Positions 30,297-33,961 of a DNA stretch of 64,000 bases are shown here, in pieces. Position 1 is the stretch's first letter. Each line of letters begins with the position of its first letter. This stretch comes from Chryseobacterium sp. C-71 (lineage in GTDB: Bacteria; Bacteroidota; Bacteroidia; Flavobacteriales; Weeksellaceae): contig NZ_CP087131.1 of NCBI RefSeq assembly GCF_020911865.1, positions 4,030,001 to 4,094,000 on the forward strand, read 5' to 3'. The notes below the pieces were generated by a model. It ran no database searches. It was not told where the DNA came from and saw only the letters and a list, made by a program, of their open reading frames with translations. The position numbers were made by a program, and so were the translations under genes.

Positions 30297-32165
30297 ATGA
30301 GAAAAATTCTATTATTAAGTTTAACTGTTTTAAGCTTTGTATCTGGTTATTCACAAACTTACTGTATTCCTGAATATGAGAATGGGTGTGATGATGGTGA
30401 TCAGATTAATTCATTTGCTATACCCTTTGCTTCTTTCAATCATCAAAATACAGGATGCTCGATAGATTCTTATGGTGATTACACAGCGCAGTCGATAACT
30501 TTACAAGCCGGTGTCGGGTATTCTTATTCAGTCACCCATGGTTATCAAACCCAAAATGTGAGAATTTGGGTAGATTTGAATAATGACGGTGTCTTTACAG
30601 ATGCAGCACCAGAATTAGTTGCTCAAAACAGTAGCACAGGTAGTGGAGCTAATTCTATTACTAATGGAAGTATAATGATACCTGTTACTGCAACTCCAGG
30701 AACATATAGGATGAGAGTGGGGGATAGGTATTCTAGCGATCCTATACCATGTAATACTGATGGCTTTGGCGAGGCTCATGATTATACGGTGGTTGTTACA
30801 GCAGCACCAAGCTGTCTTGGACCAATTGATTTAGCCTCAAGTAATATTACTACTACAGGTGCTACAATTTCTTGGTTGCCTTTTAATGCCGCACCGACTA
30901 ATGGGTATCTTTATTATTACTCCACTACAAATACTCCTCCTCCAGCCGGTGTAGGTACAGCTACAACATCTACTAGTGCTAATTTAAGCCAATTACTTCC
31001 GAGTACCGTTTATTATTATTGGGTTAGATCACTTTGTACTACTACAGATCAAAGTCCGTGGTCGGCCGGTTCTTCCTTTATGACATCTTCATTCTGTCCC
31101 GATGTCATTTCTCCGTCTGACGGAGCTACAGATGAGTCTGTTACTCCAACGATCTCATGGGATGCCTTGCCTACGGCTACAGGTTATAGATTAACTGTGG
31201 GTACAACTGCTGGTGGAAATGATATTTTAAACAATATTGATTTAGGAAATGTTTTAACATATACTTTTGTGACGCCACTTTCTAATTCTACAGAATATTT
31301 TTTCACAGTTAATGCATACAGCTCTACTATTACAACTTCTCTTAATTGTGAAGTATGGAGTTTTGTTACTATTTGTTCTTCTAATGCTGTAGTTCCTAAT
31401 TATACATATGATTTTGGTCTATTTCCTACCTCTTGTTGGTCACAGGCTTCAGATGGTGATGCAACTACTGGTCCTACAGGTACAGGTGAATATTGGTATT
31501 CTGGTGATTTTTTAAACTCTAGTTCAAATAGTAATTCTGCGGTGATTAATCTTTATGATCAGGATAATATTGGTTGGTTAAAAACTATTCCATTCAATCT
31601 AACTGGTGGTGGGTATAAGGTTAAGTTTGACATTGGTATCACGGAATTTTTTGATACAACTTCTTCTGCAATGGGATCTGATGATATTGTCCAGTTTTTA
31701 GCCTCTCAAGATGGTGGTATTACTTGGGCTGTACTACAAACGTGGAATGCTGCTAATGCACCATCTAACGTTTCAACACAGTATTCTCTGGATCTTACAG
31801 GATACACAAGTGCAAATACTGTCTTTGCATTTTTAGGTTCCGATGGTGCTATAGATGATCTTGAAGATTATGAATTCTTTATAGATAATTTCTCTGTGGA
31901 ATCTATAAATTTATCAACTTCAGAAATTTCACAAACTAGCAGTAAGCTTAAAGCATATCCAAACCCATTTGCAGATGTGTTGAACATTTCAGATGTGAAA
32001 AATGTAAAATCCATTTCAGTTATTGATATTGCTGGTAGAATAGTGAAAACTATAGAAAAACCAAGCTCGGCTCTTCAGTTAGGAGAATTGAAATCTGGTC
32101 TGTATATGGTTATTTTAAATATGAATGATGGTTCTAGACAGACAATCAAAGCAATCAAAAAATAA
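30297..32165 (+). CDS. Secreted GEVED/fibronectin III protein with T9SS type A sorting domain
   Basis: The 622-residue protein has a signal peptide (ends SGYSQ, about 20). A GEVED domain (about 45-165) shows VRIWVDLNNDGVF, RMRVGDRYSS and the eponymous GFGEAHDYTV. Two fibronectin III-like domains follow (about 170-350), then a jelly-roll-like region (WYSGDFLNSSSNS to FFIDNFSVE). The T9SS type A domain (about 550-622) begins KAYPNPFADVLNIS and is nearly identical in DNA to those of its neighbours. It is an extracellular protein of unknown ligand. Terminators on both sides indicate separate transcription. Confidence 0.85.
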   Translation: MRKILLLSLTVLSFVSGYSQTYCIPEYENGCDDGDQINSFAIPFASFNHQNTGCSIDSYGDYTAQSITLQAGVGYSYSVTHGYQTQNVRIWVDLNNDGVFTDAAPELVAQNSSTGSGANSITNGSIMIPVTATPGTYRMRVGDRYSSDPIPCNTDGFGEAHDYTVVVTAAPSCLGPIDLASSNITTTGATISWLPFNAAPTNGYLYYYSTTNTPPPAGVGTATTSTSANLSQLLPSTVYYYWVRSLCTTTDQSPWSAGSSFMTSSFCPDVISPSDGATDESVTPTISWDALPTATGYRLTVGTTAGGNDILNNIDLGNVLTYTFVTPLSNSTEYFFTVNAYSSTITTSLNCEVWSFVTICSSNAVVPNYTYDFGLFPTSCWSQASDGDATTGPTGTGEYWYSGDFLNSSSNSNSAVINLYDQDNIGWLKTIPFNLTGGGYKVKFDIGITEFFDTTSSAMGSDDIVQFLASQDGGITWAVLQTWNAANAPSNVSTQYSLDLTGYTSANTVFAFLGSDGAIDDLEDYEFFIDNFSVESINLSTSEISQTSSKLKAYPNPFADVLNISDVKNVKSISVIDIAGRIVKTIEKPSSALQLGELKSGLYMVILNMNDGSRQTIKAIKK

Positions 32166-32217: not shown

Positions 32218-32463
32218 ATTAAAATACTAGTAATTTAAAATGATTTATAATTATAAATAATAGATTATTAATAAATTATTTTACTGTATTGATTTAAAAT
32301 GATTATTATTTGATATTTTATTTTCGTTATGGATTCTGATTTTAATATGAATATTATTCTTTTAAATGCATTTTTGTATGGTTGAAATTTAATTTATATG
32401 ATATTTTATATTTTATTTTAATGAAATAATTGTAAATTAGTGTAAATTTTAAAACAAAACAAA

Positions 32464-33961
32464 ATGAAAAAAAACATTATTTTTTCTCTTAATTCCTTTT
32501 TTGGGATTTTCACAATGGACAGAGAACTTTGATGCGGGGACGACGTTGCCAGCAGGGTGGGCGGTTATAAATGATGGAGGGGCTAATGGTTGGGTTTTTG
32601 GCGTTCCTGATTTTGGTTCTGCACAAACACCTACAAATGTTGCTACGCTTACGTATGATGCAACAGCGCATGATGATTATTTAATTACAAAAGCGATTAC
32701 TGTAACCGCAGGTGTAAGTGATCGGCTTTCTTTTTTTGTAAAGTCAAGATCTTCTACCTTTCTTGAAAATTATGAAGTTTTGCTTTCAACTACAGATCAA
32801 ACAAAACCTGCGTTTACAACAGTACTTCAAGCTACTCAAAAAGCACCAAGTGTATGGACTGAAAAAACCTTTAGTTTATCTGCCTATGTTGGGCAGACGG
32901 TCTATGTAGCTATTCATGCGACCGATACGGATCAGTGGCAAATCTATGCTGATACTTTTAAAGTAGATTCTGCCCCAACTGTTGTGCCAACATGTACATC
33001 TTTTACTACTCCTACAAACGGGGCTGTTGGTGTAAATGTAGATGGCATCTTAAATTGGACTTCAGTAGCTTCAGCTACTGGATATAAGGTAAAGGTAGGG
33101 ACAACCACCGGAGGAAGTGATATAGTAAATAATGTAGATGCAGGTAATGTAATAACATATAACATAACTGGAAACCTAAACGCAAGTACTGTGTACTATG
33201 CAACCATTACTCCTTACAATGCTGTAGGAGATGCTGTAGGGTGTTCTGAGATTTCATTTACCACAATGGCTCCACCTGCAAATGATGATTGTGCAAATGC
33301 GGTGATGTTAACTTTGGGATCGAATTTTGCTCAGAATGCAATTTCTGGATCAACATCTGCTTCTACCAATACTCCTGCATTAACTGCGTCTTGCTTATTT
33401 ACGCCTTCTAATGTCGGAGGCAATGTGTGGTATAAAGTGGTGGTTCCTGCCTCGGGTAGTTTAACTATTGAGACTGCTGGTGTTGCGGGTTCTTCATTAA
33501 CTGACACAGTTATTTCGGTGTTTTCAGATTGTACTGGTGCAACTTCTCTTGGATGTGATGATGATACTGGTACTGATGCTTTCTCTAAGTTAGAACTAAC
33601 GTCTCAAACACCAGGTGCTACACTATATATAAGTGTTTGGAAATTTGGTACTGCTACAAGTGGTGATGGTGCTTTCAATATTTCAGCTTATGACGCAAGT
33701 GTTTTAGCTACTTCGGATGCTGCTCAAGTTAAAAACAATAAGCTTACAGCATATCCAAACCCATTTGCAGATGTGTTGAACATTTCAGATGTGAAGAATG
33801 TAAAATCCATTTCAGTTATTGATATTGCTGGTAGAGTAGTGAAAACTATTGAAAAACCAAGCTCGGCTCTTCAGTTAGGAGGATTGAAATCTGGTCTGTA
33901 TATGGTTGTTCTGAATATGAACGACGGTTCTCAACAAACAATCAAAGCAATTAAGAAATAA
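32464..33961 (+). CDS. Secreted choice-of-anchor/fibronectin III T9SS type A protein, frameshifted at a start-proximal A8 tract
   Basis: The long frame, whose first non-ATG start is TTG at 32501, encodes the mature protein, but its signal peptide is only complete if read from the ATG at 32464. That ATG is followed by eight A. With eight A it reads MKKNIIFSLN and stops after 22 codons; with seven it would read MKKTLFFLLIPFLGFSQ, a good signal peptide joining the long frame. Downstream domains are a jelly-roll/cleaved-adhesin-like region (about 1-160 of the mature part), a fibronectin III domain, a P-x-N-D-D-C repeat like that of 27094-30159, and the T9SS type A domain KAYPNPFADVL type (TAYPNPFADVL here). 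It may be a sequencing error, phase variation or slippage; otherwise it is a pseudogene for secretion. Confidence 0.7.

Follow-up and report, generated by a model that had tools for sequence, protein, structure and literature searches.

Gene 32501 of Chryseobacterium sp. C-71 (genome G000 in what follows) begins with a start codon that does not read into its own body. Directly behind the ATG lies a run of eight A, one more than in the closest relative, and the long, constrained frame that follows sits out of step with the start. We think that the sequenced strain probably carries a recent null allele here, created by an isolated one-base insertion in the tract of a gene that, by its domains, is a cargo of the type IX secretion system (T9SS). 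The gene lies near the middle of the stretch of DNA that was analysed, a window of 64,000 nucleotides. Its features are collected in Table 1.

Table 1. Features of gene 32501 and its 5' region, in positions of the window
Feature	Position	Strand	Basis
Promoter/5' leader, nearly unchanged in sister genome G001	32388..32463	+	71/76 positions identical to G001
ATG start codon, common to the sister gene in G001	32464..32466	+	sequence, alignment
A8 tract; A7 in G001	32467..32474	+	sequence, alignment, run comparison
22-codon frame read from the ATG, TGA at 32530-32532	32464..32532	+	translation
Open T9SS cargo body frame, including out-of-frame signal-peptide codons	32468..33961	+	no stops
Cleaved_Adhesin, PF07675	32519..32956	+	residues 7-152 of ORF from 32501, 36.3 bits
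GBD_T9SS_assoc, PF23759	33278..33571	+	residues 260-357 of ORF from 32501, 33.3 bits
Por_Secre_tail, PF18962, T9SS type A sorting domain	33752..33937	+	residues 418-479, 42.3 bits

The original prediction had pointed to eight A after this ATG and to a frame that ends after 22 codons, and the DNA has both. The tract is followed by CATTATTTTTTCTC. The signal peptide and the 486-codon body belong to a different frame from the one the ATG sets. This body frame is closed upstream by a TGA (32465-32467) that overlaps the ATG, and it then stays open through to the stop at 33959-33961, giving 497 codons with no internal stop. From the tract to the TTG at 32501 it encodes the remainder of a typical signal peptide. 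The listed open reading frame (ORF) of 486 amino acids begins at that TTG, within the signal peptide, and the sister homologue has 497 amino acids, so 486 is not the natural length of the gene. The A8 tract is ordinary: in 864 kb there are 18 sense-strand runs of this length no more than 60 nt from an ORF start. What stands out is the frame mismatch.

All three Pfam matches in the gene exceed their cut-offs, and the C-terminal sorting domain, at 42.3 bits against a cut-off of 27, is what one looks for in a T9SS cargo. The DNA for a Sec signal peptide is present as well, in G001 in frame with the body and in gene 32501 in another frame than the ATG. The gene sits within a run of T9SS cargo genes, 27094, 30297 and 34194. 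The last 225 bases of 32501 (33737-33961) are 93% identical to those of 30297 (31941-32165) and 89% identical to those of the G001 orthologue; since the two neighbours resemble each other more than 32501 resembles its orthologue, gene conversion between their sorting domains is suggested. Between 27094 and 32165 there are two cargo ORFs in the window, of 1021 and 622 amino acids, and the corresponding stretch of G001 (C19 138763-143922) has one ORF of about 1719 codons.

The nearest relative compared, G001, is Chryseobacterium aahli by name. Its gene is 83% identical to 32501, and its product (P0002, 497 amino acids, named choice-of-anchor J domain-containing protein) is the closest other protein among those scored. 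This T9SS-dependent choice-of-anchor J/Cleaved_Adhesin cargo has the same PF07675, PF23759 and PF18962 domains as gene 32501, and the same signal peptide, neighbourhood and leader. The difference is at the start. In C. aahli an ATG followed by A7 opens an intact protein that reads through in one frame, whereas in 32501 start and body are out of step. Beyond the leader identity given in Table 1, 47 of 48 positions after the tract are the same in the two genomes, and the tract is the sole gap over the last 153 columns of the leader and signal-peptide alignment; at the DNA level, comparison with the same leader and tract position rests on this one relative. The identical signal peptide is joined to the body in G001 and in P0006 (496 amino acids), and that of P0004/G119 differs by one residue. 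These relatives, in which peptide and body form one protein, led us to reject a chance reading of the signal peptide; the proposal that a T9SS cargo gene lies out of frame with its own signal peptide is confirmed. The further claim, that one A fewer would join the signal peptide to a 486-residue protein, is right about the joining, as the single frame of G001 with its A7 attests, and wrong about the length.

It had also been proposed that the tract be compared between relatives. It turns out not to be kept. Besides the A7 of G001 there is A6 then G in G119, and the more distant relatives with a readable 5' end start with ATGAAGAAA, ATGAAAAAACT or ATGAGAAAA; among the relatives compared, none has a run of eight at this position.

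The body has been looked after. Between G000 and G001 its dN/dS is 0.163. The adjacent cargo gene 34194 has a similar 0.151, and the fast genes 53217 and 57253, also in the window, gave 0.159 and 0.179. (The value of 0.923 for 30297 is not meaningful, the gene having been matched at 31% identity to a much longer ORF, and 27094 gave no row.) The likeness to 34194 implies that gene 32501 was maintained through most of the divergence of the two genomes and, together with the cargo domains still present, that the loss of frame is either recent or only apparent. Most other genes of the window have a lower dN/dS and are more constrained; constraint on 32501 may thus have weakened slightly before the lesion arose. 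An old, decaying pseudogene was considered and rejected on the open body and the dN/dS so close to that of 34194. The earlier argument to the same effect is therefore sound, and the nearly unchanged promoter and leader agree with it.

What we envisage is a single insertion, recent and confined to the lineage of this strain, that would have taken the tract from seven A, as in G001, to eight. Ribosomes setting out from the conserved ATG would stop after 22 codons and the signal peptide would not be joined to the body, so the secreted protein should be absent or present in traces, as befits a fresh null allele. Three points here are inferred: the cell really carries A8, the change was an insertion in G000 rather than a deletion in the sister genome, and the gene yields little product or none.

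The main rival is an error of sequencing or assembly, in which case the tract in the cell would be A7 and the gene an intact, ordinary one. We consider this unlikely, if far from negligible. Long-read assemblies typically err by one base in a homopolymer, and gene 32501 is otherwise under the constraint normal for its kind, as it would be if nothing had happened to it. We compared A/T runs of at least seven in either genome that had identical four-base flanks, over 374,593 aligned bp. Apart from the focal tract, 136 of 138 coding runs (19 runs of eight included) are equally long in G000 and G001, and the two exceptions, once their junctions were read, lie in the 5' leader ahead of the real start codon, so that no other such error was found in coding sequence, which argues against this rival. 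For no difference in 136 runs the 95% upper bound is 2.2% per run, and some errors across the genome would still be compatible with it. The focal tract, scored as noncoding because the listed ORF begins at TTG 32501, is the only compared run of seven or more that breaks a gene's frame.

Noncoding runs are livelier. With the focal tract excluded, 48 of 80 are equal in length and 32 differ, so tracts of seven or more do change in evolution; with it included, 13 are longer in G000 and 20 in G001. Taken over all length differences, 15 runs (the focal one among them) are longer in G000 and 20 in G001 (p = 0.50), and this absence of skew between the assemblies also speaks against an error. A one-sided scan had seemed to say otherwise. 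Starting from G000 runs only, it took 1403 runs of at least six, kept the 677 that were pure in G001 and had identical flanks of four bases, discarded the other 726, and gave an excess of longer runs in G000 (15 to 4, p = 0.019; 13 to 4, p = 0.049 without two pairs). This was an effect of the design and is gone in the two-sided scan. Nor is there, over the 374,593 aligned bp, any sign of an assembly full of homopolymer errors.

Frameshifts at large were counted in a census of the 328 of 719 G001 ORFs that had an orthologue-like match. Thirteen were flagged, and on reading they resolved into eight in leaders, one compensated pair and four internal lesions of G000 genes, so G000 carries other indel-broken genes; none of the four lesions lies in a run of five or more. 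In the reverse direction the raw count was 15 flagged among 325 G000 ORFs, several of them short A/T runs just 5' of an ATG. This first census was blind to the focal lesion, which falls at the edge of the alignment; repeated with 80 upstream bases, it flagged the focal gene. There, 324 ORFs aligned to the start and 21 were flagged in the first 150 nt. By their junctions, 11 of these lie directly at a retained ATG, eight precede a later in-frame ATG, one is a poorly aligned stretch (C11 214030, nt 137) and one is the focal gene, which alone among the 21 has a homopolymer indel that separates the body from a start codon present in both genomes.

A homopolymer so close to the start of a surface gene brings to mind the contingency genes of Campylobacter, Neisseria and Bordetella, where a one-base change in just such a place breaks the frame. 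Slipped-strand mispairing at the tract would then switch a surface protein, and the sequenced clone would have been caught in the off state. We hold this to be improbable. The product is secreted and probably surface-bound, the tract is 5'-terminal, the body is intact and noncoding tracts of similar size vary between G000 and G001, all as a switch would have it; but the tract of 32501 is short, not kept in relatives and isolated in its genome. Contingency genes would have in-frame and out-of-frame alleles among relatives, and several such genes per genome. What we found is A7 in G001 and shorter or interrupted tracts in the readable distant relatives, and a single intact gene of this layout in G000.

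This last count comes from the 76 matches to Por_Secre_tail in the G000 genome, all of whose gene starts were examined with a simple hydrophobicity score and by inspection rather than with a trained predictor. By the crude score 70 of the 76 have an in-frame hydrophobic start, and inspection adds two of the six low scorers, making 72. Of the four without, the focal gene alone is otherwise intact; the others are a cargo gene interrupted by an in-frame TAA, a degenerate remnant (3531866) and a fragment (2558005). The absence, among the 76, of any other intact cargo gene out of frame at its start tells against a switch. The broken genes are worth a glance. The cargo gene at G000:C1:4181157-4182350 is open on both sides of its TAA, near 4181667. 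The remnant (G000:C1:3531866-3532199, minus strand) sits beside longer paralogues; like the focal gene it has a start that is out of frame with its body, and a T8 run separates the two. Two further T9SS cargo genes of 554 codons, at G000:C1:1372966-1373205 and 1610119-1610358, have the same N-terminus and domain score and are apparently a recent duplicate.

ATG-A8-C occurs at nine other sites in the G000 genome, three of them in-frame gene starts and none with the focal arrangement. Across the genus, ATG-A8-C followed by T-rich sequence has a match in 54 of 60 genomes; among the 30 loci examined, one per genome, 21 are in frame for at least 100 codons. Taking these 39 sites together (nine in G000 and 30 genus loci), none has a body of at least 100 codons in the focal frame, and one, L145, has 98. 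Runs of eight are not avoided either. In 766 kb of coding sequence we counted 553 runs of seven, 141 of eight and 11 of nine, and in 98 kb of noncoding sequence 198, 98 and 26, so that avoidance in coding sequence sets in at nine, not eight, and A8 is common there.

The literature offers one nearby parallel in favour of switching. A paper on Ornithobacterium hominis mentions a putative phase-variation mechanism for the FSD genes of that species, many of which have fibronectin-binding domains, and notes that Chryseobacterium nematophagum likewise has many FSD genes (PMC13183296). Among the listed matches on Chryseobacterium or Flavobacteri*, judged mostly by titles and otherwise by passages, there was no homopolymer switch of the present kind, which counts against one; nor, among the matches listed (mostly titles and the beginnings of abstracts), did we find a description of a T9SS cargo switched by a short A tract. 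Overall the evidence is unfavourable to a contingency locus, with the reservation that reversion can happen, at some rate, in any A8 tract. That reservation has a broader form, which we regard as very doubtful: in this genus, where MKK-type signal peptides often carry an A tract close to the start, such tracts might turn individual T9SS surface proteins off and on reversibly at a low rate, with the sequenced clone off. Were the tract seen to switch in a clonal culture, it would be a case of a short A tract turning a T9SS cargo on and off.

There is one further way to rescue the product, and we think it extremely unlikely. RNA polymerase or the ribosome might slip on the A8 and so yield a fraction of full-length secreted protein. 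To reach the body frame the RNA must be one base shorter or two longer, or the ribosome must shift by +1. The heptamer A AAA AAC favours a shift of -1, and here the -1 frame is closed shortly after the tract by a TAA, which argues against ribosomal slippage. A programmed site would be expected to keep its slippery run, but the tract differs already in the sister genome.

Runs of A can slip in transcription, and there are published precedents: when a run of eight in human apoB receives an extra A, about a tenth of full-length product is made (PMC1088944), and in AT-rich Buchnera 15 (21%) of the transcription deletions began in homopolymers, at a rate that rises with run length (PMC5574713). The direction needed here is the unfavourable one. 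The same survey assigns only three (<1%) of the transcription deletions of E. coli to homopolymers and finds homopolymer slippage to be mostly insertions in both E. coli and Buchnera, so the deletion required here is the rarer event (PMC5574713). The other report finds that in a large share of 108 genomes selection against A/T runs is evident at a length of nine, in agreement with the fall at nine that we see (PMC1088944). Genes known to use slippage, such as Thermus dnaX and those of IS elements (PMC1088944), resemble 32501 in combining a run of A with two frames; 32501 departs from them in having eight A rather than nine, in its lack of conservation and in needing the rarer direction. Of the three explanations first put forward, phase variation and programmed slippage are thus left unsupported. 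There remains a one-base change in the tract, either a real insertion or an assembly error.

As a recent null allele, which we favour, or as an assembly error, the locus matters mainly for annotation. A gene caller starts 32501 at the TTG, without a signal peptide, or marks the gene as broken, and the protein is lost from secretome lists. Next door, cargo gene 34194 has a GTG start ahead of its signal peptide.
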